From positions 682,001 through 746,000 of the forward strand of contig NZ_LGIS01000012.1 in NCBI RefSeq assembly GCF_001187905.1: a stretch of 64,000 nt of DNA, given 5' to 3'. Origin of the DNA: Pantoea sp. RIT-PI-b (GTDB lineage Bacteria; Pseudomonadota; Gammaproteobacteria; Enterobacterales; Enterobacteriaceae). Positions 6,444-26,240 of this stretch are shown here, piece by piece. The notes beneath the pieces are model-generated. The model ran no database searches and had not been told where the DNA came from. It worked only from the letters and a program-made list of their open reading frames with translations. The position numbers and the translations under genes were made by a program. Positions within the stretch are counted from its first letter, which is position 1, and every line of letters begins with the position of its first letter.

Positions 6444-7810
6444 AGCGCTTACTGTTAGCCACGGTTGTGGCGTTGATGGTGAGCGGCTGTGCGACAGAAG
6501 TCGAAAAGGCGCCGTCATCGTTGCCGATCCCCGATAGCTGGCGTCAGCAGGTGGGGCCGCAGGCCGCACCAGAGGCGCAGTGGTGGCAAAACTTTGGTGA
6601 TGCCAACCTCAATCGCCTGGTTAATCAGGCGCTACAGCACAACAGCGATATCCTCACCGCACGTTCGCGCGTCGACCAATACCGCGCCGAGTTGCGCGCC
6701 GCGCAGGGCGATAATTTCCCGACCTTGTCAGCCGGCGTCGCGGCGACGCATCAGCGCGCGCTGTCGGCGGCAACCGGTCAGCCGTATGAAAGCGCGGTGT
6801 TTCAGGGGCTGTTGCAGGCCAACTATGACGTGGATTTATGGGGCAGCCGCAGCAACAGCATTCGCGCAGCCGAAGCCACGCTGGATGCGCAGCGTGCCGC
6901 CGCCTCGGCTGCCGAGTTAACCGTTGCCAGTTCGGTAGCATCGGGCTATCTCAGCCTGTGCGCGCTGGACGAACAGCTGCGCGTCACCGAAGCCACGCTG
7001 GCTACGCGGGAAAACTCACTTAATCTGGCACAGCGTCAGTTTGAAACCGGCTATACCTCACGCCTTGAGTGGATGCAGGCGGCATCGGAATACCAAACGG
7101 CCAAAGCCCAGATTCCCCAGCTGCAGCATCAGATCGAGCAGCAGGAGAATGCGCTCAGCGTGCTGGTGGGCATGAATCCGCGTGAAATTGCGCGCAGCAG
7201 CCAGTTCGATCATATCAAGCCGCAAACCTTGCCCTCACTGCTGCCTTCGCAGTTGCTCAATCGTCGGCCAGATATTGTGCAGGCGCAGCGCCAGCTGCTG
7301 GCAGCGGATGCTTCACTGGCGTCAACGCAGGCGAACCTGCTGCCGTCACTCAATCTCACCGCCAGCGGCACGTTACAAAGTAGCGAGCTGCATCAACTGC
7401 TGGATAACCCGTTCCGCTTGTGGAGTATTGGCGGCAGCATTCTGGCACCGCTGCTGAATCGCGAAGCGCTCACCGCACAGGTGGATGTGGCGATGGCGAC
7501 GCGCAATCAGGCACTCTACGGCTATGAGAAAGTGGTACGCAACGCGTTCTCCGAGGTGGATAATGCGCTGGACGCGATTCGCCGCAGCCAGCAGCAGCTG
7601 ACGGAGTTGCAGAAGCAGGAAGAGTATGTGACAGAAGCCTATCGTATTGCGCATAACCGATATCAGAACGGTTACGCCTCCTATCTTGACGAGCTGGATG
7701 CCCAGCGCACGCTGTTCAGCACCCAGCTGAATATCGTGTCGGTGAAAAACACCTTACTGCTGGCGCAGATCGATCTTTATCGATCCCTCGGCGGCGGCTG
7801 GCAGGGTTAA
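6440..7810 (+). CDS. Outer-membrane efflux lipoprotein (NodT/OprM family)
   Basis: A 456-residue TolC-type channel protein. The N-terminus is a lipoprotein signal with lipobox VSGC (Cys17). It is followed by the NodT-family start (IPDSWRQQVGP...WWQNFGD) and two repeated helical halves with short beta strands (ARSRVDQYRAELRAAQGDNFPTL and RRPDIVQAQRQLLAADASL, the hallmark second-repeat motif). It overlaps the adaptor gene by 4 bp and completes the three-part pump, so this pump need not depend on TolC. It is the last gene of the operon and is followed by a structured region at 7825-7861. Confidence 0.92.
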   Translation: MKRLLLATVVALMVSGCATEVEKAPSSLPIPDSWRQQVGPQAAPEAQWWQNFGDANLNRLVNQALQHNSDILTARSRVDQYRAELRAAQGDNFPTLSAGVAATHQRALSAATGQPYESAVFQGLLQANYDVDLWGSRSNSIRAAEATLDAQRAAASAAELTVASSVASGYLSLCALDEQLRVTEATLATRENSLNLAQRQFETGYTSRLEWMQAASEYQTAKAQIPQLQHQIEQQENALSVLVGMNPREIARSSQFDHIKPQTLPSLLPSQLLNRRPDIVQAQRQLLAADASLASTQANLLPSLNLTASGTLQSSELHQLLDNPFRLWSIGGSILAPLLNREALTAQVDVAMATRNQALYGYEKVVRNAFSEVDNALDAIRRSQQQLTELQKQEEYVTEAYRIAHNRYQNGYASYLDELDAQRTLFSTQLNIVSVKNTLLLAQIDLYRSLGGGWQG

Positions 7811-8040: not shown

Positions 8041-8433
8041 ATGATGAATAAAAAAATCGGCTTAATGTTGTTGGTTACGGCGGCACTGTTAAGCGGTTGC
8101 GCATCGCGTACCGCGCCGATTAAAAATGTTAGCCAAACCGTTGCTCAAAGCTACTCTGATGAACAGATGAAGCAGGCGATTATTCAGGCTGGCACGACCA
8201 ATAAATGGACCATGACGCCAGTAGGCCCCGGCGCTATTGATGGCTACCTGGCCGCGCGCGGCTACAGTGCAGATATTCGCGTTAACTACACCGCGAACAG
8301 CTATCAAATCCTCTATGTCAGCAGCCAGAATTTAAAAGCGGGTAGTGGTCAGATTCACCGCAATTATAATGTCTGGATTGATCGGTTGGATCGCAGCATC
8401 CAAACACGTTTAAAGGCTAATGCCTACAAATAA
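8041..8433 (+). CDS. Small lipoprotein of unknown function
   Basis: A 130-residue protein with a type II signal peptide (MMNKKIGLMLLVTAALLSGC, Cys20). The mature part contains a repeated SYSDEQMKQAIIQAG / IDRLDRSIQTRLKANAY pattern and an alternating beta-rich centre (DIRVNYTANSYQILYVSS), suggesting a compact periplasmic alpha/beta domain. The start is placed at ATGATG (8041 or 8044), just after AAAAGGAA; an in-frame extension to 7975 lacks a ribosome-binding site and would bury the signal peptide. It stands alone, with its own AT-rich upstream region and a hairpin at 8498-8518. I recognise it only as the kind of uncharacterised enterobacterial lipoprotein found next to APE clusters. Confidence 0.8.
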   Translation: MMNKKIGLMLLVTAALLSGCASRTAPIKNVSQTVAQSYSDEQMKQAIIQAGTTNKWTMTPVGPGAIDGYLAARGYSADIRVNYTANSYQILYVSSQNLKAGSGQIHRNYNVWIDRLDRSIQTRLKANAYK

Positions 8434-8497
8434 GCGCGAAGCGTGCTGACGGACATAATGTTGTAAAGTTAGCCGCAACGCTGCCGAAATAGAAAAC

Positions 8498-8518
8498 AGG
8501 CGGGCCATGTGCCCGCCT
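8498..8518 (+). terminator. Hairpin terminator after the lipoprotein gene
   Basis: AGGCGGGC (498-505 within this kb) pairs with GCCCGCCT around CATGT, followed by TGTTAAT. It separates the lipoprotein gene from the aryl polyene cluster. The T-run is poor. Confidence 0.5.
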
Positions 8519-8623
8519 TGTTAATCGGCGACATCCGCATGGGATGACGGGTATAGAGAGCAAGGAAGGGATGCCGGACAGTGGAAATCTGACCCGCCCT
8601 GAGGCTGAAGAAAGAATACAGGT

Positions 8624-9355
8624 ATGAAACTCGCTTACTCCCTTGTTGACTGGCATGCCATTGCGCCGGGTCACAGCACCTTAGAAGAGTGGCAGCGCTG
8701 GGCGCAACAGGCGCCAGTGCTGGACGCCACACAACCCATCGCGAAACCCCAATTTTTGCCGATGATGACCGCGCGTCGTCTCAGCGCGGGCAGCCGAGCG
8801 GCTGTAGAGTGCGGGCTGGCGCTATTGGCGCGACAAACGGTCGATGCCATCGTCTTTACCAGTCGCCACGGTGAGCTCGAGCGCAACCTGCGTATTCTTA
8901 GCGCGCTGGCCGAGCAGCAAGCGCTGTCGCCGACCGACTTCGCCATGTCGGTCCACAACTCTGCGGTGGGGAGCTTAACCATTGCCGCGCGTCAGCCGCT
9001 GGTGTCAACGTCGATCTCGGCGGGCAACGATAGCTTCCAGCAAGGTTTACTCGAAGTCGCGGCACTGCATCAGGCAGGCTATGCGCAGGTGTTACTGGTG
9101 GATTTTGACGGCAGCGTACCGCCGTACTATCGTCCGTGGCTGCCGGAGATCGATCATTTCAATGCGCCCTATGCGCTGGCGTTGCTGCTGCGCGCGGGCG
9201 ACGAGTGGCGCTGTACGGCGCAGGCCGCTCCACCCGCAGCGCACCCGCTGCCGCAAAGCCTGCAGGTACTCTCGGCGATATTGCGTGATGCGCCAGCGTT
9301 TAGCGTACCAGGCGAGCGCCACCATTGGATGTGGGAGCGTCAGCATGGTGGATAA
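8624..9355 (+). CDS. apeC: Aryl polyene chain-length factor (ketosynthase-like)
   Basis: A 243-residue protein of the short, N-terminal-only ketoacyl-synthase group seen in aryl polyene (APE) clusters. In place of the active-site Cys segment it has VSTSISAGNDSFQQG, with no Cys. This is expected for a chain-length factor that pairs with the true ketosynthase ApeO, encoded later in the cluster; the ApeO:ApeC heterodimer is known from Xenorhabdus. It is the first gene of a 16-gene plus-strand run matching apeC-apeR in order. The next gene begins inside it (11-bp overlap). The ribosome-binding site (CAGG) is modest. No promoter consensus is obvious upstream. Confidence 0.85.
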   Translation: MKLAYSLVDWHAIAPGHSTLEEWQRWAQQAPVLDATQPIAKPQFLPMMTARRLSAGSRAAVECGLALLARQTVDAIVFTSRHGELERNLRILSALAEQQALSPTDFAMSVHNSAVGSLTIAARQPLVSTSISAGNDSFQQGLLEVAALHQAGYAQVLLVDFDGSVPPYYRPWLPEIDHFNAPYALALLLRAGDEWRCTAQAAPPAAHPLPQSLQVLSAILRDAPAFSVPGERHHWMWERQHGG

Positions 9356-10142
9356 TTCGCTGGTGCAGTCGCGTCCCGGTTTTAACTATTACTGGCGACT
9401 GGCGATGACCGCCGTCAGCTTCACGCTGTTCAGCGTCGGCGGCCTATTACTGTCGCTCATCTGGTTTAATGTGCTGCTGCTGGTGCAGCGCGATGGCCTG
9501 CGTCGTCGGCAAATCGCGCGCAGCAGTATCGCCTGGAGCTTCCGCTGCTTCCTGCGCTTCTGCCGTTTTGTCGGTGTTTACGATTACCAGATTATCGGCG
9601 CAGAACAGCTGCGCCAGGATCGTGGCTGCCTGATCGTCGCGAATCATCCGTCGTTGATCGATTACGTGATGATTGCCTCGGTGTTGCCGGAGATGGATTG
9701 TCTGGTCAAAGCCGAGCTGCAGCACAACATCTTCTTCCGCGGCGTGATTCGTGCCGCCGATTATCTGATTAATAGCGAAGCCGATACGCTGCTGCCGGAT
9801 AGTCAGCAGCGGCTGGCGCGCGGCGATACCATCCTGATTTTTCCCGAAGGAACGCGCACGCGCTACGGCGAGCCACTGAAGCTGCAGCGCGGTGCCGCCA
9901 ATATTGCGGTGCGTGCCGGATGCGACCTGCGCGTGGTTCATATCACCTGCAGCGAACGCATGCTTGATAAGCAAAGCCGCTGGTATCAGATTCCGCTGGT
10001 TAAACCGCTTTTTACTGTACGCGTACAATCGCGTATCGCTAGCCAGGCCTTTAGTGAAGCCGAAGAGGATGCGCAGCCGCTGGCCGCCCGTCGCCTGACG
10101 CGACATCTGCAACAGGCGCTGGTGCCTGAAGAGACTAACTAA
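9345..10142 (+). CDS. apeD: Lysophospholipid acyltransferase-like protein of the APE cluster
   Basis: A 265-residue PlsC/LPLAT-type acyltransferase. One membrane segment (about residues 22-48) is followed by the HX4D motif NHPSLID (His101-Asp106) and FPEGTR (166-171), which bind the acyl donor and phosphate acceptor in this family. The start at 9345 (ATG GTG GAT) overlaps apeC by 11 bp; the longer frame upstream lies inside apeC and is not coding. In APE clusters this enzyme is thought to help attach the finished polyene to a membrane lipid. The acceptor is not established from sequence. Confidence 0.85.
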   Translation: MVDNSLVQSRPGFNYYWRLAMTAVSFTLFSVGGLLLSLIWFNVLLLVQRDGLRRRQIARSSIAWSFRCFLRFCRFVGVYDYQIIGAEQLRQDRGCLIVANHPSLIDYVMIASVLPEMDCLVKAELQHNIFFRGVIRAADYLINSEADTLLPDSQQRLARGDTILIFPEGTRTRYGEPLKLQRGAANIAVRAGCDLRVVHITCSERMLDKQSRWYQIPLVKPLFTVRVQSRIASQAFSEAEEDAQPLAARRLTRHLQQALVPEETN

Positions 10143-10145
10143 GTT

Positions 10146-10403
10146 ATGCAAGTACTGATCAACGACATCAAACAGATGATTATCGACACGCTGAATCTGG
10201 AAGATATCAGCCCTGACGACATTGAAACCGATGCGCCGCTGTTTGGCGAAGGGCTGGGACTCGATTCTATCGATGCGCTGGAGCTGGGACTGGCGGTCAA
10301 AAATCGCTTTGGCGTACAGCTCTCCGCCGAGAGTGAAACGCTGCGTGCGCACTTTTTTTCCGTGGCTACACTGGCCGCGTTTGTTGAACAACAGCAAGCC
10401 TGA
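10146..10403 (+). CDS. apeE: Acyl carrier protein 1 of the APE cluster
   Basis: An 85-residue acyl carrier protein: four-helix pattern with the phosphopantetheine motif GLDSIDALEL, Ser41 being the attachment site. It follows apeD after 3 bp and is followed at 11 bp by a second carrier protein. In APE synthesis two ACPs carry the aryl starter and the growing polyene between ligase, ketosynthases, reductase and dehydratases. Confidence 0.9.
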   Translation: MQVLINDIKQMIIDTLNLEDISPDDIETDAPLFGEGLGLDSIDALELGLAVKNRFGVQLSAESETLRAHFFSVATLAAFVEQQQA

Positions 10404-10414
10404 GAACAGTCAAC

Positions 10415-10669
10415 ATGATGAACAAAAACGAAATTTACCAGGAAGTGGCCACGCTACTCACTTCGCTGTTTGAAATTGAGCCGGATGCGATTCGACCAGA
10501 TGCCCGTCTGTATGAAGATCTCGAGCTGGATAGCATTGATGCGGTGGATATGGTGGTGCATTTGCAAAAGCGCACGGGCCGGAAGATCAAACCGGAAACC
10601 TTCCGTGCGGTGCGTACCGTGCAGGACGTGGTTGACGCCGTCGACCAGCTGATGCGCGACGAAGCCTGA
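10415..10669 (+). CDS. apeF: Acyl carrier protein 2 of the APE cluster
   Basis: An 84-residue acyl carrier protein with phosphopantetheine motif LELDSIDAVDM (Ser40). It is clearly different from ApeE outside this motif, so this is not a recent duplication. ATGATG offers two starts (10415 or 10418). Two dissimilar ACPs side by side are typical of APE clusters. Confidence 0.9.
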   Translation: MMNKNEIYQEVATLLTSLFEIEPDAIRPDARLYEDLELDSIDAVDMVVHLQKRTGRKIKPETFRAVRTVQDVVDAVDQLMRDEA

Positions 10670-10677
10670 TTTCTGTC

Positions 10678-11238
10678 ATGTGCACGCTTCTGCGGCTGCT
10701 GAATGGCGCGGCGCTGTTGGCCTGGCCTTTTCTGGTGTGGTTAACCCTCACCCAGCCGCAGTGGCGCGGCATCACCGGCCTGCTGGCGCTGCTGTTTGTA
10801 CTGCGCGTCTGGAGTTTACGCCGCGCGGCGGGCCCGATGGGCCGCGTGATGCTGCTGCTGGCGCTGGTTGGCACCGTGCTGTGTCTCACCAGCCTGCTGT
10901 TGCGCTCGCAACATCTGCTGCTGTGGTATCCGCTGGTGGTCAACGCTGTAATGCTGCTGCTGTTTGGCGCGTCGCTGTGGAGCCCGATGCCGCTGGTGGA
11001 ACGCCTGGCGCGACTGCGTGAAGCAGATTTACCCGCGCGCGCGGTGCGCTACACCCGCCGGGTAACGCAAGTGTGGTGCGGCTTTTTCATCTTCAACGGC
11101 AGCGTGGCGCTGGTCACCTGTCTGCTCAATGATGTCACGCTTTGGACACTCTGGAATGGGTGCATCAGCTACCTGCTGATGGGCACGCTGATGGGCGGCG
11201 AATGGCTGCTGCGTCAGCGCATAAGGAAACAGACATGA
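10678..11238 (+). CDS. apeG: Integral membrane protein of the APE cluster (COG4648-like)
   Basis: A 186-residue hydrophobic protein with about five membrane segments and a basic central loop (RLARLREADLPARAVRYTRR). It starts 8 bp after apeF and overlaps the ligase gene start by 4 bp. Proteins of this kind occur at the same place in other APE clusters; the biochemical role is unknown. A part in moving or anchoring the lipid-linked polyene is inference. Confidence 0.78.
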   Translation: MCTLLRLLNGAALLAWPFLVWLTLTQPQWRGITGLLALLFVLRVWSLRRAAGPMGRVMLLLALVGTVLCLTSLLLRSQHLLLWYPLVVNAVMLLLFGASLWSPMPLVERLARLREADLPARAVRYTRRVTQVWCGFFIFNGSVALVTCLLNDVTLWTLWNGCISYLLMGTLMGGEWLLRQRIRKQT

Positions 11239-12563
11239 AGCTACGCAGCATCCGCGACTGGCTCACTGCGCCGGATCGCACGGTTGCCTGGCACGGCACG
11301 CAGCACACTACGCTGCACACCCTGCGCCAGCAGGTACAGGCGCTGGTCGAGCGGCTGCTCCAGCATCCAGGCCAGCATTGGGCGCTGTGCTTTGACAACA
11401 GCTATGCATTCACCGCCGCGCTGCTGGCGCTGTGGTATGCGGGAAAAACGCCGGTGATCCCCGGACACTGCCGCGCGGCCCAGTTGGAAGAGATGGCCGA
11501 CAGCCTCGACGGCGTGCTTTGCGATATGCCGCTGGCGGTGTCATTACCGCAGCTGCGCTGGGACGGTAGGCTGGCCAGCGGCGAACTGCCGCCAATCGCC
11601 GATGATGCTCACCTCGTGCTGTTTACCTCCGGCTCGACCGGCACGCCGCGCCGGGTAACGAAATCACTGCGCGCGCTCGATCTCGAAGCCAGCTGGCTCC
11701 ACAGCTTGTGGGGCGATCGGTTGCGCGATTGCCATGTGATTGCCTCGGTGAGTCATCAACATCTGTATGGTCTGAGTTTCCGCATTATCTTGCCGATGGC
11801 GCTGGGTTTACCGTTTGCCGCGCAACAGATTTTTTACGGCGAACAACTGGCGGATCAACCCAGCGACCGTCGCTACGCTTTTATCAGCAGCCCGGCGTTT
11901 CTCCGTCGGCTGGATACGTCGCTTACTGCACCACGCTGTGAGCTGATTGTCTCTGCCGGCGGTGCGTTGCCGTGGACGGCGGCACAGCAGGCGCAACAGA
12001 CGCTGAGCTGTGCGGTGGATGAAATCTATGGCAGCACCGAAACCGGGGTAATTGGCTGGCGCTGCGCCACGGCGGAAAACGTGCTGTGGCACTGTTTCCC
12101 GCACATCACCCTGCGCGAGCAGGAAGCCGGTCGCTGGCGGGTGTTCTCCGCCTTACTGGACACCGAAGAGGGTTGCGCGCTCGACGATCGCATTGTGCAG
12201 CAGCCGTCCGGCCAGTTTCAGCTGGCGGGCCGCCAGGATCGCGTGGTGAAGATTGAAGATAAACGCGTGTCGCTGAGTGAAATTGAACGGCGCTTGCTGG
12301 CACTGCCGGGCGTAGAAGATGCCGCCGCGCTGGCGATTCAGCGCCATGGACGTCACGCCATCGGCGTGGTGCTGGCGCTAGCCGAGCAGAGGGATGCGGC
12401 GACGCTGCATCAGCTAAAAATCGCGTGGAAGCGCGCGTTGCAACCCTGGCTGGAGCCGGTGGCGATGCCGCGCTATTGGCGCGTGGTGACGTCGATTCCT
12501 GTCACGGCGCAAAGCAAGCGCGCGTGGCCGCAAATTGAGGAGTTGTTTGATGTTGCCGGTTGA
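11235..12563 (+). CDS. apeH: Aryl-ACP ligase (AMP-forming) of the APE cluster
   Basis: A 442-residue ANL-superfamily adenylating enzyme, shorter than typical acyl-CoA ligases. The ATP-binding P-loop FTSGSTGTPRRVTK is at 130-143, the adenylate motif EIYGSTETG near 265, and the hinge/C-terminal motif GRQDRVVKIEDKRVSLSEIE near 335. By analogy to ApeH of Xenorhabdus it should activate the aromatic starter acid (4-hydroxybenzoate-type) and load it on an ACP. The start at 11235 overlaps the apeG stop; an in-frame extension upstream lies inside apeG. Confidence 0.88.
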   Translation: MKLRSIRDWLTAPDRTVAWHGTQHTTLHTLRQQVQALVERLLQHPGQHWALCFDNSYAFTAALLALWYAGKTPVIPGHCRAAQLEEMADSLDGVLCDMPLAVSLPQLRWDGRLASGELPPIADDAHLVLFTSGSTGTPRRVTKSLRALDLEASWLHSLWGDRLRDCHVIASVSHQHLYGLSFRIILPMALGLPFAAQQIFYGEQLADQPSDRRYAFISSPAFLRRLDTSLTAPRCELIVSAGGALPWTAAQQAQQTLSCAVDEIYGSTETGVIGWRCATAENVLWHCFPHITLREQEAGRWRVFSALLDTEEGCALDDRIVQQPSGQFQLAGRQDRVVKIEDKRVSLSEIERRLLALPGVEDAAALAIQRHGRHAIGVVLALAEQRDAATLHQLKIAWKRALQPWLEPVAMPRYWRVVTSIPVTAQSKRAWPQIEELFDVAG

Positions 12564-12897
12564 ATTAGATGCCCAACAGCAGGGCGATGCGCTGACGTTG
12601 CGTTTGCACGCTGCCGCCGATCTGTTTTGGTTTCGTGGTCACTTTCCCACCTTGCCCATTCTGCCTGGCGTGGCGCAGCTCGACTGGGCGCTGCATTACG
12701 GTCTGAAGCGTTTAGCGCCGGGAAAAAGCTTCGCCTCGATTGATAATATTAAATTCCAGCAGCCGGTGCCGCCGGATGCCGAACTGGAGTTACGGCTACA
12801 GTGGCAAGCGGAAAAATCGCTGCTCAGTTTCAGCTACAGCCTGATCAACGGCGAGGTGGCGACGGTGGCCAGCAGCGGGAAGATCCGCCTGTGTTGA
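12550..12897 (+). CDS. apeI: Hot-dog-fold dehydratase subunit of the APE cluster
   Basis: A 115-residue FabZ-like protein with the dehydratase signature RGHFPTLPILPGVAQLDW (catalytic-type His in GHFP). In the APE pathway it forms a heterodimer with ApeP and removes water from the 3-hydroxyacyl-ACP to make each trans double bond. The start at 12550 follows AGGAG at a good distance and lies 14 bp inside apeH. Confidence 0.85.
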   Translation: MLPVELDAQQQGDALTLRLHAAADLFWFRGHFPTLPILPGVAQLDWALHYGLKRLAPGKSFASIDNIKFQQPVPPDAELELRLQWQAEKSLLSFSYSLINGEVATVASSGKIRLC

Positions 12898-14585
12898 GCC
12901 CTCACTTCACGCCCTGCGTATTGATTCCCTGCTATAACCACGGCGCGATGCTGGCCTCGGTGCTGGCGCGGTTGGCGCCGTTTAACTTGCCGGTGCTGCT
13001 GGTGGACGATGGCAGTAATGCCGAGACCAAACGGCAGATCGCCGCGCTGGCGGCGCCGCAATTGCAGGTGCTGACGTTGCCGCACAATCAGGGCAAAGGG
13101 GCGGCAGTCATTGCCGGCATGCGCGCGGCGGCGGCGGCGGGCTATACGCACGCGCTGCAGCTGGATGCCGATGGTCAGCATCAGGTGGAAGATGCGCCGC
13201 GCATGTTGGACGAAGCGCAACGCTATCCGCACTGTTTGATCTCCGGTCAGCCGATTTACGATGATTCGATCCCTAAATCGCGCCTGTATGGCCGCTACAT
13301 CACCCATTTCTGGGTGTGGGTGGAAACGCTGTCGCTGTCACTTAAAGACAGCATGTGCGGCTTCCGCGTCTATCCGCTTGCGCCGTCGCTCAGGCTTTGC
13401 GACCGCCGTCCCATTGGCCAGCGTATGGATTTCGATACCGAGATCATGGTGCGTCTCTATTGGCAGGGCACGCCGAGCCGTTTTCTCGCCACGCGCGTCA
13501 CCTATCCAGAGAGCGGCGTGTCGCATTTCGATGCGCTGCGTGACAACCTGCGTATTTCGTGGATGCACACGCGCCTGTTCTTCGGCATGTTGCCGCGGAT
13601 CCCGCAGTTGCTGCGCCAGCGTGGCGATGCGCAGCACTGGTCGGCCACGCCGGAACGCCGTGGGCAGAGCGGTATGCGCTTTATGCTGTGGCTCTATCGC
13701 CGTGCTGGACGCTTGCCCTTTGTGCTGCTGCTGTGGCCGGTAGTGGCGGGTTTCTGGCCAACCGGCCGCGCCGCGCGCGCCGCGTCGCAGCAGTGGCTGA
13801 CGCGTGTGCAAGCGGTGGCGCAGCAGCAGAACATCACGCTGCCTGCGCCGGTGAATAGCTATCGTCACTTTTTGCGTTTCGGCTACAGCATGCTGGACAA
13901 AGTGGCCAGCTGGCGCGGCGATCTGCAGTGGGGTCGCAATATCGATTTCGCGCCCGGCGCTGAAGCCACTATTCGTGCTGCCGAAGGCAAAGGCCATCTG
14001 ATTCTGGCATCCCATTTAGGTGATATCGAAGCCTGCCGCGCGATGGCCAAACAGGTAAGCGGGCTGGTGATTAACGCGCTGGTGTTTACCGACAACGCGC
14101 AGCGTTTTCGCGAGGTGCTGGAGAGCATTGCGCCGCAGGCGGGCGTGAATTTGATGCCGGTGACCGATATCGGTCCGGATACCGCCATTCTGCTGCAGCA
14201 AAAACTGGATGCCGGTGAATGGGTGGCGATTGTTGGCGATCGCACGGCGATCCATCGCCAGCGCGGCGGTGAGCGTCGCGTGGTGTGGAGCGAATTTATG
14301 GGACGTCCTGCGCCGTTTCCACAAGGGCCGTTTGTGCTGGCGGCCGCGTTGCGCTGTCCGGTGCTGCTGATGTTTGCCCTGCGCGAACAGGGCCGCCTGC
14401 GGGTGCATTGTGAAGCCTTTGCCGATCCGCTACTGCTGCCACGCGCCCAGCGCCAGCAGGCGTTGCAGGCCACGGTTGATCGCTATGCCGAGCGGCTGCA
14501 ACAGCATGCGCTGATGGCGCCGCTCGACTGGTTTAACTTTTACGATTTCTGGACGTTGCCCGAGGAGAAAAGCCGCGATGAGTGA
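12891..14585 (+). CDS. apeJ: Glycosyltransferase-acyltransferase fusion of the APE cluster
   Basis: A ~564-residue two-domain protein. Residues ~8-235 are a GT-A family 2 glycosyltransferase like dolichol-phosphate-type enzymes: IPCYNHG, VDDGSNAETK, LDADGQHQ (DXD-like) and MDFDTEIMVR. Residues ~270-560 resemble the HtrB/LpxL acyltransferases (SHLGDIEACRAM in place of HX4D/E, VGDRTA). The domains are joined through a hydrophobic segment (PFVLLLWPVVAGF). The fused pair could glycosylate or acylate the lipid anchor. The start is GTG 12891 or TTG 12894, overlapping the apeI stop; the longer frame lies within apeI. Confidence 0.82.
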   Translation: MLSPHFTPCVLIPCYNHGAMLASVLARLAPFNLPVLLVDDGSNAETKRQIAALAAPQLQVLTLPHNQGKGAAVIAGMRAAAAAGYTHALQLDADGQHQVEDAPRMLDEAQRYPHCLISGQPIYDDSIPKSRLYGRYITHFWVWVETLSLSLKDSMCGFRVYPLAPSLRLCDRRPIGQRMDFDTEIMVRLYWQGTPSRFLATRVTYPESGVSHFDALRDNLRISWMHTRLFFGMLPRIPQLLRQRGDAQHWSATPERRGQSGMRFMLWLYRRAGRLPFVLLLWPVVAGFWPTGRAARAASQQWLTRVQAVAQQQNITLPAPVNSYRHFLRFGYSMLDKVASWRGDLQWGRNIDFAPGAEATIRAAEGKGHLILASHLGDIEACRAMAKQVSGLVINALVFTDNAQRFREVLESIAPQAGVNLMPVTDIGPDTAILLQQKLDAGEWVAIVGDRTAIHRQRGGERRVVWSEFMGRPAPFPQGPFVLAAALRCPVLLMFALREQGRLRVHCEAFADPLLLPRAQRQQALQATVDRYAERLQQHALMAPLDWFNFYDFWTLPEEKSRDE

Positions 14586-14994
14586 AAGCAACTACCGCGC
14601 AGAGGTGGAGATAACCGTGTCGTTTCACGACTGCGATCCGATGGGCGTGGTGTGGCACGGCAACTACTTCCGCTATTTTGAGGTGGCGCGCGAAGCCCTG
14701 CTGCGCAGCATCAACTACAGCTACGGCGAAATGGCCGCCAGCGGCTTCGTCTGGCCGGTGGTCGATACCCACGTAAAATATCGCCAGCCGCTGCGCTGTG
14801 AAGAGGTGGTGCGCGTGGCCGCCAGTATCAGTGAATATGAAAACCGTCTGCGCATCGATTATGTGATTCGTAACGCGGTAGGGCAGGTGACCACCAAAGC
14901 CCACACGCTGCAGGTCGCCGTCAACGCCGCGACGCAGGAGATGTGTTTTGTCTCGCCTGACATTCTGTTTGCCCGCCTGGGAGTGAAGCCGTGA
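14578..14994 (+). CDS. apeK: YbgC-type thioesterase of the APE cluster
   Basis: A 138-residue 4-hydroxybenzoyl-CoA-thioesterase-fold protein. SFHDCDPMGVVWHGNYFRYFE (about residues 15-35) carries the catalytic Asp20 and the conserved His27. It should hydrolyse or edit acyl thioesters during polyene synthesis. It overlaps apeJ by 8 bp and apeL by 4 bp. Confidence 0.88.
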   Translation: MSESNYRAEVEITVSFHDCDPMGVVWHGNYFRYFEVAREALLRSINYSYGEMAASGFVWPVVDTHVKYRQPLRCEEVVRVAASISEYENRLRIDYVIRNAVGQVTTKAHTLQVAVNAATQEMCFVSPDILFARLGVKP

Positions 14995-15602
14995 TTCGAA
15001 CCTTTTGTCTGCTGTTGCTGATGGTGTGTGCCAACGCCAGCGCGGTAACGCTCGAGCAGCTGCAACAGCGCTTCGCCAGCCAGCCGGTGATTCGCGCCAA
15101 TTTTGTGCAGGTGCGCACCATTGCTGGCATGGCGCAGCCGCTGGTGTCGCGCGGTCAGCTGTTGATCGCCCAGCAGCAGGGCTTGTGGTGGCAGCAAGCG
15201 ACGCCGTTCCCGCTGATGCTGATCCTCGATGAAAAGCGCATGGTGCAGAGCATCAGCGGCCAGCCGCCGCAGGTGATCACCGCCGACAGCAATCCACAGA
15301 TGTTCCAGTTCAACCATCTGCTGCGCGCGCTGTTCCAGGCCGATGAAAAAGTGCTGCGCGAGAATTTTGTGCTCGATTTCCACGATCGTGGCAATGACCG
15401 CTGGCAGCTGGGTCTGACGCCGAAAGCCGCGCCGCTGAATAAGATCTTTAACCGCATCGATCTGCAGGGCGATAAATTCCTCAATCGCATTACGCTGGAT
15501 GATAAGCAGGGCGATAAGACCGACATCACCCTGAGCGATACCCGCACCGAACCGCAACAGTTGACCGATGAAGAGCGAGCGCGTTTTGCCCCAGCGCAGT
15601 GA
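14991..15602 (+). CDS. apeL: LolA-like periplasmic carrier of the APE cluster
   Basis: A 203-residue secreted protein: signal peptide of ~18 residues ending ANASA, then a LolA/LolB-like half-barrel (LQQRFASQPVIRANFVQVR, beta-rich repeats). Starts at GTG 14991 after GGGAG, overlapping the apeK stop. As LolA ferries lipoproteins across the periplasm, this paralogue is expected to carry the lipid-linked polyene to the outer membrane; that role is inferred from family and context. Confidence 0.82.
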   Translation: MIRTFCLLLLMVCANASAVTLEQLQQRFASQPVIRANFVQVRTIAGMAQPLVSRGQLLIAQQQGLWWQQATPFPLMLILDEKRMVQSISGQPPQVITADSNPQMFQFNHLLRALFQADEKVLRENFVLDFHDRGNDRWQLGLTPKAAPLNKIFNRIDLQGDKFLNRITLDDKQGDKTDITLSDTRTEPQQLTDEERARFAPAQ

Positions 15603-17889
15603 GAAAACCGTCGCGCTGCTGTGGCTGGCGGTGTGCCTGACGTTAGCGGTAGCGCTGGCGATCCTGTTGCCGCGCAGTCAGCTCAATAGCAGCGTGCTGG
15701 CGCTGTTGCCGCAGCAGAACCTCGGTCAGGCACCGGTGGAGATTCAGCAGGGCTTTATGCAGCGCCTCGATCGTCAACTGGTGTGGCTGGTGAGCGCCAA
15801 CGATCAGGAGGGTGATGCGGTCGCAGCTTGGTGGCAAACGCAGTTACAAGCCCTGCCGATGCTGAAACAGGTAAGCGGCGAGCTGGATGACGATCAGCTG
15901 CAGCGCTGGGGCGCGTATGCGTTTCAGCATCGCAATGGCCTGATCGATCCCGCCACGCGCGGCCGGCTGCAAAACGGCGGCGATGCGCAGGCCGACTGGA
16001 TTCTGGCGCAGCTGTTCTCGGCGTTCGCCGGCGTCGGCAGCAAGGAGATCGGCAACGATCCGCTGCTGCTGGTGCGCGGTGCGCAGCTGGCGCTGCAGCA
16101 AAGCGCCAACAAGATGCTGCTGCATAACGGCTGGCTAACGGTGAAAGATGCGCAGCAGCGCCGCTGGTATTTCCTGCACGGTGAACTGGCGAGCAATGCC
16201 TTCAGCATTAAAGAGAGCCATCAGCTGGTGACGGCGCTCAATCAGCTGCAATCCCAGCTTAAAACGCGCTGGCCGGATGCGCAGCTGCTAACGCGCGGCA
16301 CGGTGTTATTCAGTGATGATGCCAGCCAGCGCGCGCAGCATGATGTGGAAACCCTCGGCAGCGCGACGCTGGCAGGATTGCTGCTGCTGGTGTGGCGGGT
16401 ATTTCGCTCACTGCGGCCGCTGGCGCTGTGTGCGCTGTCGGTGGCAATAGGCGCGATGGCGGGCACGGTGCTGACGCTACTCTGTTTTGGCGAACTGCAT
16501 CTCACCACCTTAGTGATGAGCCTAAGCATTGTCGGCATCTCGGCCGATTATACCCTCTACTATCTGACGGAGCGCATGGTGCACGGCGAGCAAGCCACGC
16601 CGTGGCAGAGTTTGCACAAGGTGCGCGGCACGCTGCTGCTGGCGCTTGGCACCACGGCGATTGCCTGGCTGCTGATGCTGCTGGCACCGTTCCCCGGCTT
16701 GCGCCAGCTGGCGGTGTTTGCCGCCAGCGGATTGAGCGCCTCCTGCCTGACGGTAATCTGCTTTTATCCGTGGCTGGTACGTGGCTTACCGGTGCGTCCC
16801 ATTCCGGCGATGGTATGGCTGGCACGCTGGCTGGCAGCCTGGCGGCGCAATAATTGGCTGAAGCGCGGATTGCCGGCGCTGGTGGCGATCTATGCGCTGA
16901 GCGGCATGCTGCAGCTGCACGTCGACGATGATATCGCCCATCTGCAGAGTGCACCGGCGCAGCTGCTGGCACAGGATCGTCAATTGGCGCAACTGACCGG
17001 CCAGCAGGCCGATCAAACCTGGTTTGTGGTGTGGGGCGATGATGAGCAGCAAGCGCTGCAGCGGCTTAGCGCGCTGGCACCGCAGCTGCAGCAGGCGCAG
17101 CAGCAAGGCTGGCTGGCCGGTTATCGCATCTTGCCGCTCAGTTCGCTGGCGCAGCAGCAGCAGGATGTGGTGCTGTTGCAGCAGGCGGCACCCAACATTC
17201 TGCAACGCTTGCAGCAAGCGGGCATTAGCGTGGCGAACGCCCATCTTAGCGCGATGCCGGTGAGCGCCGCCGACTGGCTGGCAAGCCCACTGAGTGAAGG
17301 CTGGCGGCTGTTATGGCTGTCGCTGCCGGACGGGCGCAGCAGCGTGTTGGTGCCGGTCAGCGGCGTGAAAAACAGCGCCGCGCTGCAACAGCTGGCAGCC
17401 CAGCAGGCAGGCGTGAGCTGGGTCGATCGCAAGGCCAGCTACGATGAACTGTTCCGCTTCTGGCGCACCTTGCTGAGCGGCTTACTGGCGCTGGCGCTGT
17501 TGCTGATTACTGCCAGCTACATGCTGCGGCTGGGGGTAAAAGCCGGCATGCGCAGCGCGCTGCCGTCGTGGTTGTCGCTGGCGGCGGCGCTGGCGACACT
17601 GGGCTGGATCGGCGCGAGCCTCAATCTGTTTGCTCTGCTGGCGCTGATTCTGGTGCTCGGCATCGGCATCAACTACACGCTGTTCTTCAGCAATCCGCGC
17701 GGTACGCCGTTAACCTCAATGCTGGCGGTAACGCTGGCAATGATGACCACGCTATTAACGCTTGGCATGCTGGTGTTCAGCAGCACCGCCGCCATCAGCG
17801 GCTTTGGTACCGTGCTGTGTAGCGGGATTTTTTGTGCATTCTTGCTGGCGCCACTGGCGCTGGCGCCGGGGAAAAGGAAGCAACGATGA
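15568..17889 (+). CDS. apeM: MMPL/RND-type exporter of the APE cluster
   Basis: A 773-residue inner-membrane protein with the duplicated MMPL layout: one membrane segment, a large periplasmic domain (about 40-255), five or six segments (about 258-440 including SLSIVGISADYTLYYLTERM), a second periplasmic domain (about 445-620) and a final bundle (about 630-765, GIGINYTLFFSNPRG). The paired D-Y-T / N-Y-T segments lie where RND proton-relay residues usually are; only the first keeps an Asp. It overlaps apeL by 35 bp and apeN by 4 bp. Likely role: extraction of the finished product from the inner membrane to ApeL. Confidence 0.85.
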   Translation: MKSERVLPQRSEKTVALLWLAVCLTLAVALAILLPRSQLNSSVLALLPQQNLGQAPVEIQQGFMQRLDRQLVWLVSANDQEGDAVAAWWQTQLQALPMLKQVSGELDDDQLQRWGAYAFQHRNGLIDPATRGRLQNGGDAQADWILAQLFSAFAGVGSKEIGNDPLLLVRGAQLALQQSANKMLLHNGWLTVKDAQQRRWYFLHGELASNAFSIKESHQLVTALNQLQSQLKTRWPDAQLLTRGTVLFSDDASQRAQHDVETLGSATLAGLLLLVWRVFRSLRPLALCALSVAIGAMAGTVLTLLCFGELHLTTLVMSLSIVGISADYTLYYLTERMVHGEQATPWQSLHKVRGTLLLALGTTAIAWLLMLLAPFPGLRQLAVFAASGLSASCLTVICFYPWLVRGLPVRPIPAMVWLARWLAAWRRNNWLKRGLPALVAIYALSGMLQLHVDDDIAHLQSAPAQLLAQDRQLAQLTGQQADQTWFVVWGDDEQQALQRLSALAPQLQQAQQQGWLAGYRILPLSSLAQQQQDVVLLQQAAPNILQRLQQAGISVANAHLSAMPVSAADWLASPLSEGWRLLWLSLPDGRSSVLVPVSGVKNSAALQQLAAQQAGVSWVDRKASYDELFRFWRTLLSGLLALALLLITASYMLRLGVKAGMRSALPSWLSLAAALATLGWIGASLNLFALLALILVLGIGINYTLFFSNPRGTPLTSMLAVTLAMMTTLLTLGMLVFSSTAAISGFGTVLCSGIFCAFLLAPLALAPGKRKQR

Positions 17890-18461
17890 AAATGGGTGCG
17901 CTTGTGCTGATGTTGAGCCTGCTGCTAAGCGGTTGTGCTGAGCATGCCAGCGAAATTAATCGGCCAACCGCCTGGCTGAAACCGGGCGTACGCGTGACGC
18001 TACCGCCGCCAGGAATTTCGCCCGCTTTTCAGCAGCAGCAACTGCTGACCGGGCACGCCAAAGGGAAAACCCAGTCGCTGCTGGTATTACTCAGCGCCGA
18101 TGCGCAGCAGCTGAGCCTGGCGGGATTGTCGTCGCTCGGCATTCGTTTGTTCCGCGTCACCTATGATAAAAACGGCATTCACACCCAGCAGATGATGGCG
18201 CTAACGGAAATGCCGCCCGCCAGTCAGGTGCTGGCCGACGTGATGCTGAGCCATTGGCCAATCAGCGCGTGGCAGCCGCAGTTGCCGCGCGGTTGGACGC
18301 TGATCGATATTGATGATCGCCGCGAGCTGCGCGATCCGGCCGGCAAGGTGGTGACGTTGATTCGTTATTTACAACGCGGTGCGCAGCGTGAGCCGATCAG
18401 CATCGATCAACGCGCCTTTGGTTATCAGATTCAAATCCAACAACTGGATGCGTCATCATGA
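17886..18461 (+). CDS. apeN: DUF3261-type lipoprotein of the APE cluster
   Basis: A 191-residue lipoprotein with lipobox LSGC (Cys17) and a beta-rich mature part. It is LolB-sized and occurs next to ApeL/ApeM in APE clusters, so an outer-membrane receptor role for the polyene is a reasonable inference. The start at 17886 (ATGA overlap with apeM) puts the signal peptide at the very N-terminus; a longer frame lies in apeM. Confidence 0.8.
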   Translation: MKMGALVLMLSLLLSGCAEHASEINRPTAWLKPGVRVTLPPPGISPAFQQQQLLTGHAKGKTQSLLVLLSADAQQLSLAGLSSLGIRLFRVTYDKNGIHTQQMMALTEMPPASQVLADVMLSHWPISAWQPQLPRGWTLIDIDDRRELRDPAGKVVTLIRYLQRGAQREPISIDQRAFGYQIQIQQLDASS

Positions 18462-19615
18462 TCTACATTTCCGCCTTTGGCATGGTCAATGCGCTGGGCA
18501 ATAACCTGGCGCAGATTGCTGTGCAGCTACAAGCGGGCCGCGCGCCGGGCATGCAGCCGCGTGACGGCTGGTTGCAGGCAGGCAAACGCTGCTGGCTGGG
18601 GCAGGTGCAGGGCGAGTTACCGGCAATCCCTGCCGCGTTAGCCGCACACAACACGCGTAACAATCAGCTGCTGCTGGCGGCGCTGGCGCAGCTGCGTCCA
18701 GCGCTGGAGGCGGCCATCGCGCAATATGGGCGCGATCGCGTGGCGATTGTGCTCGGCACCAGCACGTCCGGCGTGGATGAAGGCGATCGTCAGGTCGCTG
18801 GCGGCTTGCCGGGCTACGATTACCGCATGCAGGAGCTGGGCGATCCGTCGCGCTTCCTTGCCCACTTTTTAGCACTGGAGGGCCCGGCTTATACGATTTC
18901 TACCGCTTGCTCCTCCAGCGCGCGCGCAATGATCAGCGGCCAACGTTTGATTGATGCCGGGTTAGTGGATGTGGCGCTGGTGGGCGGCGCGGATTCGCTG
19001 AGCCGCATGCCGATCAACGGCTTCGCCAGTCTTGATTCGCTCTCGGATCGCCACTGCGCACCCTTTAGCGCCGACCGCGACGGCATTTCGATTGGCGAAG
19101 CCGCGGCGCTGCTGTTGCTGACGCGGGAGAAGCAGCCGCTGGCGCTGCTCGGCTGCGGTGAGTCATCGGATGCGTGGCACATGTCGGCACCGCATCCGGA
19201 AGGCGTCGGTGCGGAGCGCGCGATGCTGATGGCGCTGCAGCAGGCGGGATTACAGCCGCAGGATGTCGGTTACATCAACCTGCACGGCACCGCGACGCCG
19301 CTCAACGATCGGGTGGAATCTGCGGTTATTCATCGCCTGTTTGGCGAGCGCGTGCCGTGCAGCTCGACCAAACATCTCACCGGCCATACGCTAGGCGCGG
19401 CGGGTGCCACTGAAGCGGCGCTAGCGGCGCTGATTCTGCAGCAAAATTTGCCGCTGCCGCCGCAGGATTTCTCTGTGGCAGCACGTGATGCCTTACTGCC
19501 GGAATGCGGTTTGCTCACCACGCCACAACCTTTGCAGCGTCCAATCATCGCTTCAAACTCATTTGCTTTTGGCGGGAACAATACCTGCCTGATTGTAGGA
19601 AAGCCTCATGACTGA
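18458..19615 (+). CDS. apeO: Beta-ketoacyl-ACP synthase of the APE cluster (elongating, KS of KS:CLF)
   Basis: A 385-residue FabF/FabB-type condensing enzyme with an intact triad: Cys151 (TISTACSSSARAM), His276 (INLHGTATPLND) and His310 (STKHLTGHTLGAAGA). It should form the heterodimer with the Cys-less ApeC and extend the aryl chain with malonyl-ACP. Overlaps apeN by 4 bp and apeP by 8 bp. Confidence 0.9.
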   Translation: MIYISAFGMVNALGNNLAQIAVQLQAGRAPGMQPRDGWLQAGKRCWLGQVQGELPAIPAALAAHNTRNNQLLLAALAQLRPALEAAIAQYGRDRVAIVLGTSTSGVDEGDRQVAGGLPGYDYRMQELGDPSRFLAHFLALEGPAYTISTACSSSARAMISGQRLIDAGLVDVALVGGADSLSRMPINGFASLDSLSDRHCAPFSADRDGISIGEAAALLLLTREKQPLALLGCGESSDAWHMSAPHPEGVGAERAMLMALQQAGLQPQDVGYINLHGTATPLNDRVESAVIHRLFGERVPCSSTKHLTGHTLGAAGATEAALAALILQQNLPLPPQDFSVAARDALLPECGLLTTPQPLQRPIIASNSFAFGGNNTCLIVGKPHD

Positions 19616-20096
19616 TTTTCTGCCGGTCGCGGCTTATTTGCCGCACCGCGCGCCGATGCTGCTGCTCGACCGCGCTATCCTGGTCAGCGATGACAGCGTG
19701 ATCTGCGAAGTCAGCATCAACGCTGACGGCGTGCTGGCGCCGTTTCTTACGCCACAAGGTGATTTGCCGGCGTGGTACGGCGTGGAGATCATGGCGCAAA
19801 CCATTGGCGTCTGGTCTGGCTTTCATGCCCGCCAGCGCGGCGAGAGCGAGATTCATCCCGGCATGCTGCTCGGTGGACGTGGCTATCGCGCCAATAGCGC
19901 CACCTTTGCCGCCAATAGCACGCTGCGCGTTGAGATGCGTCTGCTGATGCGTGACGACCGGCTGGGCAGCTTCGAAGGGGAGATCCGCTGCAACGACGTA
20001 ATGATCGCCAGCGGGCGGCTGAACACCTATCAGCCTAATCAACAAGAGTTAATTCAATTGCAACAAACGCCGTTAAAACAAGGAGTTCAGCCATGA
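19608..20096 (+). CDS. apeP: Second dehydratase subunit of the APE cluster
   Basis: A 162-residue hot-dog-fold protein of the 3-hydroxy-fatty-acyl dehydratase type: start LPHRAPMLLLDRA, central helix WYGVEIMAQTIGVWSG with the catalytic-type Glu in VEIMAQ, and LLGGRGYR. It is the partner of ApeI in the heterodimeric dehydratase. Overlaps apeO by 8 bp and apeQ by 4 bp. Confidence 0.87.
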   Translation: MTDFLPVAAYLPHRAPMLLLDRAILVSDDSVICEVSINADGVLAPFLTPQGDLPAWYGVEIMAQTIGVWSGFHARQRGESEIHPGMLLGGRGYRANSATFAANSTLRVEMRLLMRDDRLGSFEGEIRCNDVMIASGRLNTYQPNQQELIQLQQTPLKQGVQP

Positions 20097-20824
20097 CACG
20101 CAGCGTATTAGTCACCGGCGCCAGTAAAGGGATTGGCCGCGCCATTGCGCAACGTCTGGCGCTGGACGGTTTTGAGATTGTGGTGCATTACCATCGCGAT
20201 GCCAGCGGTGCACAGCAAACGCTGGCCGGGATTGAACAGGCGGGCGGACGCGGACGCACCTTGCAGTTTGACGTGGCGCAGCGTGAAACCACGCGCAACG
20301 CGCTGGAGCAGGATATCGCCGCGCACGGCGCCTATTACGGCGTGGTGAGCAATGCGGGTATCACGCGCGATGCGGCGTTTCCGGCGTTGACCGACGATGA
20401 GTGGGACAGCGTAATCCACACCAATCTCGACAGCTTTTACAATGTGATTCATCCATGCGTGATGCCAATGATTGGCCTGCGCCAAGGCGGACGCATTATT
20501 ACGCTCTCCTCAGTATCGGGAATAATGGGCAATCGTGGTCAGGTCAACTACAGCGCGGCCAAAGCTGGCATTATCGGCGCCACCAAAGCGTTGGCGATTG
20601 AGCTGGCAAAACGCAAAATTACCGTTAACTGCATCGCACCGGGTTTAATTGATACCGGCATGACCGATCTCGAGCCGTTGGTGATTGATGAGGCGATGAA
20701 GCTGATCCCGATGAAGCGCATGGGCGCGGCGGAGGAAGTGGCCGGACTGGCCAGTTATCTGATGTCGGACATCGCCGGCTACGTCACGCGTCAGGTGATT
20801 TCAATCAATGGAGGTATGCTGTGA
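20093..20824 (+). CDS. apeQ: 3-ketoacyl-ACP reductase (FabG-like) of the APE cluster
   Basis: A 243-residue short-chain dehydrogenase/reductase. NADPH site TGASKGIGRA (residues 8-17), NAG motif at 87-89, catalytic Ser140, Tyr153 and Lys157 (NYSAAKAG), and the FabG-like C-terminal YVTRQVISINGGM. Reduces the 3-keto group after each condensation so that ApeI/ApeP can dehydrate it. Overlaps both neighbours by 4 bp. Confidence 0.92.
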   Translation: MTRSVLVTGASKGIGRAIAQRLALDGFEIVVHYHRDASGAQQTLAGIEQAGGRGRTLQFDVAQRETTRNALEQDIAAHGAYYGVVSNAGITRDAAFPALTDDEWDSVIHTNLDSFYNVIHPCVMPMIGLRQGGRIITLSSVSGIMGNRGQVNYSAAKAGIIGATKALAIELAKRKITVNCIAPGLIDTGMTDLEPLVIDEAMKLIPMKRMGAAEEVAGLASYLMSDIAGYVTRQVISINGGML

Positions 20825-22056
20825 TTCAGCGCGTCGTGGTAACCGGTATGGGTGGCGTAACCGCCTTTGGTGACAGCTGGAGCGCGGTGGCCGAGCGCAT
20901 TAAGCAGGGCAAAAATGCCGTGCGTCACATGCCGGAGTGGCAGGTTTACGATGGCTTGCACACGCTGCTGGGTGCGCCGGTGGACGACTTCACGCTGCCT
21001 GCCCATTACACGCGTAAGCGCATTCGCTCGATGGGGCGCGTCTCGCTGATGGCGACGCGCGCGACCGAACTGGCGCTGGAGCAGGCCGGCTTGATCGATC
21101 ATCCGGTGCTGACCAGCGGTGAAACCGGCATTGCCTACGGCTCCTCAACCGGCAGCACCGGCCCGGTGAGCGAGTTCGCCACCATGCTGACGGAAAAGCA
21201 CACCAATAACATTACCGGCACCACCTATGTGCAGATGATGCCGCACACCACCGCCGTTAATGCCGGTCTATTCTTTGGCCTGCGCGGCCGGGTGATACCG
21301 ACGTCCAGCGCCTGCACATCGGGCAGCCAGGCGATTGGCTACGCATGGGAAGCGATCCGCCACGGCTATCAAACCGTGATGGTCGCCGGTGGTGCGGAAG
21401 AGTTGTGTCCTTCCGAAGCGGCGGTGTTCGACACGCTGTTCGCCACCAGCCAACGCAACGATGCGCCACACAGCTCGCCTGCGCCGTTTGATCAGCAGCG
21501 CGATGGTTTAGTGATTGGCGAAGGCGCGGGCACCTTGATCCTCGAGTCGCTGGATCATGCACAGGCGCGCGGTGCCACCATTTACGCCGAGCTGGTGGGT
21601 TTCCACACTAACTGCGATGCCGCGCATATCACCCAGCCGCAGCGCGAAACTATGCAGATTTGTATTGAGCGCGCGCTAAAAACGGCCGGTGTCACGGCGG
21701 ATCAGATTGGCTATATCAACGCCCACGGCACCGCTACCGATCGCGGCGATATCGCCGAGAGCCAGGCAACGGCGGCGATCTTTGGCCGCAGCACGCCAAT
21801 CTCCTCACTGAAGAGCTATTTTGGCCATACGCTGGGTGCCTGCGGAGCGCTGGAAGCGTGGATGAGCATTGAGATGATGCGTGAAGGCTGGTTCGCGCCG
21901 ACGCTGAATCTGACGCAACCGGCAGCGGAGTGCGGTGAGCTGGATTACATCATCGGCGCGGCGCGGCAGGTGGAGACCGATTACATCCAATCCAATAACT
22001 TCGCGTTTGGCGGTATCAACACCTCGCTGGTGTTTAAACGCTGGCGCGGTGCCTGA
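20821..22056 (+). CDS. apeR: Second beta-ketoacyl-ACP synthase of the APE cluster
   Basis: A 411-residue FabF-type condensing enzyme with Cys165 (PTSSACTSGSQAIG), His302 (INAHGTATDRGD), Lys331 and His336 (LKSYFGHTLGACGA). It is longer than ApeO and is the last gene of the run. In the Xenorhabdus pathway the ApeR-type enzyme acts as a separate ketosynthase beside the ApeO:ApeC pair, possibly for the first condensation. Start is GTG 20821 overlapping the apeQ stop. It ends just before a pair of palindromic repeats. Confidence 0.9.
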   Translation: MIQRVVVTGMGGVTAFGDSWSAVAERIKQGKNAVRHMPEWQVYDGLHTLLGAPVDDFTLPAHYTRKRIRSMGRVSLMATRATELALEQAGLIDHPVLTSGETGIAYGSSTGSTGPVSEFATMLTEKHTNNITGTTYVQMMPHTTAVNAGLFFGLRGRVIPTSSACTSGSQAIGYAWEAIRHGYQTVMVAGGAEELCPSEAAVFDTLFATSQRNDAPHSSPAPFDQQRDGLVIGEGAGTLILESLDHAQARGATIYAELVGFHTNCDAAHITQPQRETMQICIERALKTAGVTADQIGYINAHGTATDRGDIAESQATAAIFGRSTPISSLKSYFGHTLGACGALEAWMSIEMMREGWFAPTLNLTQPAAECGELDYIIGAARQVETDYIQSNNFAFGGINTSLVFKRWRGA

Positions 22057-24768: not shown

Positions 24769-24942
24769 ATGGAAGCCAGAGATGACAAACTGATCGCCAT
24801 AATTGGCCTGTTATCCGCCTGCCTGATTGGTGTGGTGTTTCTCTTCACCATGACCTGGCTTACCGATGTGCGGCATCCCGCCGATCCCTCGCTTGATGTA
24901 CAAACCTGCCCGCAACAAAGCGTCACCACCCAACACTCTTAA
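24769..24942 (+). CDS. Small membrane protein, 57 aa
   Basis: A 57-residue frame starting at ATG 24769, which has TAAGGAG at a good distance; an ATG 6 bp earlier (24763) is too close to it. A charged N-terminus (MEARDDK) precedes one membrane helix (about residues 8-31, LIAIIGLLSACLIGVVFLFTM) and a ~25-residue polar tail with one Cys. Same direction as, and probably co-transcribed with, the 47-aa protein. It overlaps the end of the convergent hydrolase gene by 4 bp. No family recognised. Confidence 0.62.
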   Translation: MEARDDKLIAIIGLLSACLIGVVFLFTMTWLTDVRHPADPSLDVQTCPQQSVTTQHS

Positions 24943-26087: not shown

Positions 26088-26240
26088 AATCCTCTCCTCA
26101 CGGTGAACGCCGGATGCAGAACGCTTGGCTAAGTCTAGACTAAATTGACGACGCGCCATTTGGCAGATGAGGAAGGCTCCGATTGCCATTTATCGCGCCG
26201 ATACTAACAATAATAGGTCCACAGCTTTCAGGGATTCACT

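Follow-up and report, generated by a model that had tools for sequence, protein, structure and literature searches.

The 64,000-nucleotide stretch of Pantoea sp. RIT-PI-b analysed here (contig NZ_LGIS01000012.1, positions 682,001 to 746,000; hereafter the window) contains a gene cluster for an aryl polyene (APE), a yellow, membrane-bound antioxidant pigment. Sixteen plus-strand open reading frames (ORFs) at 8624-22056 of the window represent apeC-apeR in the gene order of E. coli CFT073. An apeA-like gene immediately upstream brings the total to 17 of the 18 E. coli genes; the one missing is apeB, the product of which is thought to methylate the pigment. The genome is 5.27 Mb in size and is estimated to be 100% complete; in a scan of named genomes the nearest loci were those of other Pantoea. 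The locus is probably a functional E. coli-type cluster (APE-Ec; apeA plus apeC-apeR) that lacks apeB as the sampled Pantoea do, and its pigment would carry an unmethylated 4-hydroxyphenyl head.

Organization of the cluster

The features are listed below with window coordinates and strand; percentages are relative to the E. coli CFT073 counterpart unless stated otherwise.
8041-8433, plus: apeA-like lipoprotein gene, 130 aa, lipobox LSGC; 43% to CFT073 ApeA (tblastn); start chosen
8434-8623, no strand: apeA-apeC spacer of 190 bp, the apeB position in E. coli; no apeB trace
8624-9355, plus: apeC, chain length factor; PF13723, E 7e-66; 57%
9345-10142, plus: apeD, lysophospholipid acyltransferase-like; PF01553; 62%
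10146-10403, plus: apeE, acyl carrier protein; PF00550, LDSID motif
10415-10669, plus: apeF, acyl carrier protein; PF00550, LDSID motif
10678-11238, plus: apeG, membrane protein; 58%; no Pfam match
11235-12563, plus: apeH, aryl acyl-ACP synthetase (AMP ligase); PF00501; 49%, and 48-50% to three Xenorhabdus ApeH
12550-12897, plus: apeI, dehydratase; PF22818 ApeI-like, E 1e-30
12891-14585, plus: apeJ, glycosyltransferase/acyltransferase; PF00535; 63%
14578-14994, plus: apeK, thioesterase; PF13279
14991-15602, plus: apeL, LolA-like; PF19574, PF03548
15568-17889, plus: apeM, MMPL/RND transporter; PF03176
17886-18461, plus: apeN, DUF3261 lipoprotein; PF11659
18458-19615, plus: apeO, ketosynthase; 68%; motifs TACSS, GTATP, KHLTGHTLGAAG
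19608-20096, plus: apeP, dehydratase; PF22817 ApeP-like
20093-20824, plus: apeQ, ketoreductase; PF13561, TIGR01831 above cut-off; YSAAK motif
20821-22056, plus: apeR, ketosynthase; NF006587 above cut-off; motifs SACTSG, HGTATD, KSYFGHTLGACG

In the order of the genes, the Pfam matches are a ketosynthase N-domain (chain length factor, CLF), an acyltransferase, two acyl carrier proteins (ACPs), an AMP ligase, ApeI, a glycosyltransferase and a thioesterase in the first half, followed by LolA, an MMPL transporter, DUF3261, a ketosynthase, ApeP, a ketoreductase and a ketosynthase; ApeG has no Pfam match. The products of apeC-apeP correspond one-to-one and in the same order to those of CFT073, with identities of 46.7-69.5%. 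ApeQ is 80% identical to CFT073 apeQ, the CFT073 copy being incomplete because it ends with the compared stretch. CFT073 apeR lies outside that stretch, and the apeR assignment therefore rests on family matches and relatives. The window thus has the content and order of the CFT073 APE-Ec cluster (apeA-apeR, c1204-c1186; Johnston 2021, PMC8253772) for apeA and apeC-apeQ, with apeR matched by family.

An earlier note, made from the sequence alone, had placed apeC-apeR in APE order, with two ACPs, two dehydratases, CLF and two ketosynthases, and both the Pfam matches and the CFT073 order agree with it. Its boundaries of 8624-22056 hold for apeC-apeR and leave out the start of the cluster, where the apeA-like gene stands. 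The genes had also been described as mostly overlapping by 1-35 bp: with the starts chosen here, 12 of the 15 junctions between apeC and apeR overlap, by 4-35 bp, and the other three (D-E, E-F and F-G) have gaps of 3-11 bp.

All functional sets of APE-Ec are represented: the core synthesis enzymes, namely ketosynthase and chain length factor, ketoreductase and two dehydratases (ApeO/C/Q/I/P); the priming set of the aryl acyl-ACP ligase ApeH and two ACPs (ApeE, ApeF); the attachment and export set (ApeD/J/K/G/L/M/N); and the lipoprotein ApeA at the cluster start. The apeA product has no Pfam or NCBIfam match; an apeA match is nonetheless found 5' of apeC in all 13 Pantoea G-loci with the cluster, an E. 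coli-type locus included. The apeB methyltransferase, an APE-Ec gene in E. coli, is not found in the window cluster. ApeB is not taken as defining APE-Ec, because it is absent from many of the APE loci examined. The cluster class itself is well known and is already recorded for Pantoea by antiSMASH: 'APE Ec' matches are in print for Pantoea stewartii ST25 (90%) and strain BAV2934 (78%), the available text of these reports not stating which genes are missing.

Absence of apeB in the Pantoea sampled

CFT073 has a 1059-bp apeB between apeA and apeC, whereas the window has the 190-bp spacer. No methyltransferase was found in the cluster, as the earlier note had claimed, or in the scan of the proteins that flank it. 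The search of the rest of the genome that the note had called for was run for ApeB: with METHYLTRANSFERASE sought elsewhere, a single-sequence query with CFT073 ApeB gave no match in the window genome at E up to 10, and a 16-member ApeB profile gave none at E 1e-10. As a gauge of its sensitivity, the CFT073 query had matches in 14 of 60 relatives, six of them near full length with 50-59% identity. The remaining eight are all Pantoea, comprising G011 (a 3' piece, 72%) and seven weak matches.

The profile was run at the same cut-off on 61 Pantoea genomes, this one included. Full-length ApeB was found in none; the one match, in G011, covers profile positions 211-356 only. ApeJ was found in 36 of these genomes, and the other 25 had no ApeJ match at 1e-30. 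In a second set, consisting of the 17 genomes behind the named loci, the profile matched all three positive controls, by construction since these contribute their own ApeB rows to it, and two fragments in Xenorhabdus griffiniae, which is outside the profile. The other 13 gave no match: six Pantoea (at least one also among the 61) and seven non-Pantoea, namely two Buttiauxella, Lelliottia nimipressuralis 51, Enterobacter JUb54, Pseudocitrobacter faecalis, Rosenbergiella and Serratia inhibens. Absence of apeB is general in the sampled Pantoea; a literature search of titles and abstract openings found no statement of it.

The spacers contain no apeB remnant that could be recognized in a six-frame profile search of 14 Pantoea apeA-apeC spacers (best E 2.2). 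A GGGCC...GCCCGCC hairpin occurs in six of the 14. Around the spacer, one terminator-like site (1.4 expected) and two promoter-like sites (1.2 expected) were counted, and no claim is made for either. The G011 cluster (L051) is of E. coli type and from the same genus as the window. In the tree it falls with clusters of E. coli and Citrobacter and not with those of other Pantoea; it also has different neighbour genes and retains a 145-aa 3' apeB remnant between apeA and apeC, where the window has none. A fragmentary apeB between apeA and apeC was also seen in Xenorhabdus griffiniae VH1 (L098:832-1215).

The weak ApeB matches (30-34% over ~100-120 residues, E 1.6e-7 to 5.9e-4) come from Pantoea G006, G017, G021, G022, G045, G049 and G050. 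The proteins concerned (L073-L079) have 341-351 aa and are encoded away from the APE cluster; ApeJ is present in six of the seven genomes.

Recurrence of the apeB-less state

In total, 101 loci, with some genomes represented twice, were typed for apeA, apeB, apeC and ammonia-lyase. A tree was planned from 44 E. coli-type loci that have no lyase and whose upstream side could be seen; of these, 24 have full apeB, 18 have none and two have a remnant. The 57 loci left off were lyase-bearing, distant, incomplete (e.g. Serratia inhibens L104) or additional ones from Pantoea. Two apeB-bearing loci among the 44 were dropped for want of apeO, which gave a 42-row Enterobacterales tree. On this quick ApeJ plus ApeO tree, in which remnants are coded as absent, gain and loss are not distinguished and six of the 39 inner branches are open, the apeB state requires a minimum of eight changes. 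The absence is therefore recurrent. A single starred clade holds the 12 ordinary Pantoea rows, none of which has apeB.

E. coli-type clusters with no apeB in the cluster or elsewhere in the genome were found in Buttiauxella, Lelliottia nimipressuralis 51, Enterobacter JUb54, Pseudocitrobacter faecalis and Rosenbergiella. The clusters of these five taxa also show no apeA in the compared locus, whereas the window has it. Likewise, apeA was not found in any of the six apeB-less non-Pantoea loci of the tree, while Pantoea retains apeA.

Starter unit

The genome has a single UbiC match, adjoining an ORF that by eye is UbiA-like, and UbiC can, judging from this match, supply 4-hydroxybenzoate. Vibrio and flexirubin-like pathways start instead from 4-coumarate, produced by an ammonia-lyase. 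In Shewanella, Moritella and relatives, which share a homologous core, such a gene lies near apeJ in 34 of the 101 loci (a few genomes twice). The window cluster contains none, in line with the earlier note, and so differs from the lyase-bearing (Vibrio/Shewanella-type) clusters with their in-cluster aromatic ammonia-lyase.

Two PF00221 proteins are encoded elsewhere in the genome (C12:472468-484029), which could in principle allow a 4-coumarate starter in place of 4-hydroxybenzoate. One is HutH1, which scores above the TIGR01225 hutH cut-off and lies beside ORFs that by eye resemble urocanate hydratase and a regulator, i.e. in a hut context. The second scores as a histidine ammonia-lyase (above NF006871, below TIGR01225) and has a three-residue deletion at the site of the Ala-Ser-Gly triad, which forms the MIO cofactor. 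Both keep SH and QEDH at sites that bear on ammonia-lyase substrate choice, whereas F/YH and NQDK occupy these positions in the seven lyases compared from APE clusters. By this comparison of sites, no APE-type ammonia-lyase is present among the PF00221 matches of the genome. The ApeH of the window is on the whole closer to ligases of lyase-free clusters: identities are 31-53% (median 48%) to those of all 24 lyase-free apeB-bearing loci and 28-38% (median 34%) to those of all 34 lyase-bearing loci, the ranges overlapping. A 4-coumarate starter from a lyase encoded elsewhere is accordingly very improbable. In vitro, the ApeH of Xenorhabdus (APE-Xd) is reported to load 4-hydroxybenzoate (Johnston 2021, PMC8253772).

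The triad-less HutH-like gene (L006:6632-8125; G000:C12, about 482.6-484.1 kb) is an observation in its own right. It follows four ORFs that by eye resemble an amino-acid ABC transporter and lies near a HutG-like ORF. The best solved relative of the protein is 7tqr, a probable histidine ammonia-lyase; another is 6s7j (E 8e-63), an ergothionase, that is, an MIO-independent lyase. The substrate may be another histidine derivative.

Predicted pathway and head group

By analogy to the E. coli and Xenorhabdus pathways described in the literature, 4-hydroxybenzoate from UbiC would be loaded onto an ACP by ApeH, and the polyene would be extended by ApeO-ApeC, ApeQ and ApeI/ApeP. The product would then be joined to lipid by ApeK/D/J and transported to the outer membrane by ApeM, ApeL, ApeN and ApeG (with ApeA). 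Without ApeB, the head would remain an unmethylated 4-hydroxyphenyl. Three PPTase-family matches are present in the genome, and on the strength of family membership these proteins could activate the ACPs. The E. coli study has ApeH starting from 4-hydroxybenzoate and ApeB 'likely' methylating the head, and describes variation in head-group methylation between genera (Johnston 2021, PMC8253772).

The cluster is under strong purifying selection. Nei-Gojobori dN/dS values for the 16 genes apeC-apeR against four Pantoea relatives are 0.00-0.23 in all 64 comparisons, extra upstream codons of D, H, J and N being excluded, and D, J, K, M, L and N are constrained like the other cluster genes. All 16 genes are open and in register. 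The motifs examined in ApeO, R, E, F, Q, D, H and J, which we take to be catalytic, are intact. Since purifying selection acts strongly on all 16 genes, the cluster looks functional.

Several observations weigh against this interpretation. In the E. coli study (PMC8253772), deletion of apeA, apeB or apeK is reported to yield immature APE carboxylic acids, and no strain other than the parent and the apeR mutant makes the main APE lipid; a cluster that had simply lost apeB would therefore be expected to fail in maturation. Furthermore, ApeJ is in pieces in Pantoea G005, G051 and G078, through decay or assembly error, and a substitute methyltransferase is conceivable in the seven Pantoea with weak ApeB matches, although the window genome has no such match.

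The split ApeJ of the three congeners, together with the 25 genomes that have no ApeJ match, would fit a cluster that became silent or began to decay after apeB was lost and makes no mature APE lipid. This outcome is improbable given the low dN/dS throughout, the open frames and the intact motifs.

The E. coli result (PMC8253772) would also favour retained methylation, which in Pantoea could be carried out by a methyltransferase unrelated to ApeB and encoded elsewhere in the genome. Candidates exist: PF00891 has one protein above the family cut-off and six below it in the window genome, the nearest of the seven sharing a contig with the window at a distance of ~160 kb, and the seven other Pantoea encode weak ApeB relatives away from the cluster. 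Against this, the window genome gave no ApeB homologue in either search, the scanned cluster and flanking proteins include no methyltransferase, and the sole PF00891 protein above the cut-off scores 30 bits and is on another contig. Retained methylation is thus unlikely, though less so than a silent cluster.

Because E. coli no longer forms the APE lipid once apeB is deleted, Pantoea either tolerates the absence, its enzymes accepting an unmethylated head, or uses an unrelated methyltransferase. We infer that the pigment of this Pantoea most probably carries an unmethylated 4-hydroxyphenyl head. The earlier note had proposed this head, made from 4-hydroxybenzoate; the lack of ApeB and of an APE-type lyase, the presence of UbiC and the ApeH similarity support it, as a prediction tempered by the unrelated enzyme considered above. 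More tentatively, Pantoea may make the mature APE lipid without ApeB, its attachment machinery freed from the dependence on ApeB observed in E. coli. If so, E. coli would use methylation, or ApeB itself, as a check-point before the lipid is attached, and several lineages would have lost this control independently. A constrained cluster in a genus where no full apeB was found offers a natural test of the purpose of head-group methylation, and it bears on why E. coli apeB mutants make no lipid form. Yellow colour alone is weak evidence of APE production here, because the genome also encodes a member of the phytoene/squalene synthase family (PF00494) and carotenoids are made by Pantoea.

Neighbouring genes and other features of the window

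Genes for an EmrB-like MFS transporter, an HlyD protein and an outer-membrane efflux protein (OEP) lie at 3685-7810 on the plus strand, directly 5' of apeA. Such genes adjoin 12 of the 13 Pantoea APE G-loci and were not found at the E. coli-type L051; the TonB receptor gene located downstream adjoins nine of the 13. Neither the efflux genes nor the TonB receptor gene were added to the pathway, because adjacency can reflect a shared chromosomal site. A 416-aa protein encoded at 24939-26189 on the minus strand has no Pfam or NCBIfam match, and at the Pantoea loci L046, L048 and L049 a relative (76-77%) is encoded next to the APE cluster. An Rfam TwoAYGGAY match (55 bits vs the gathering score of 43) is located at 49113-49190 on the minus strand, between murJ and flagellar genes.

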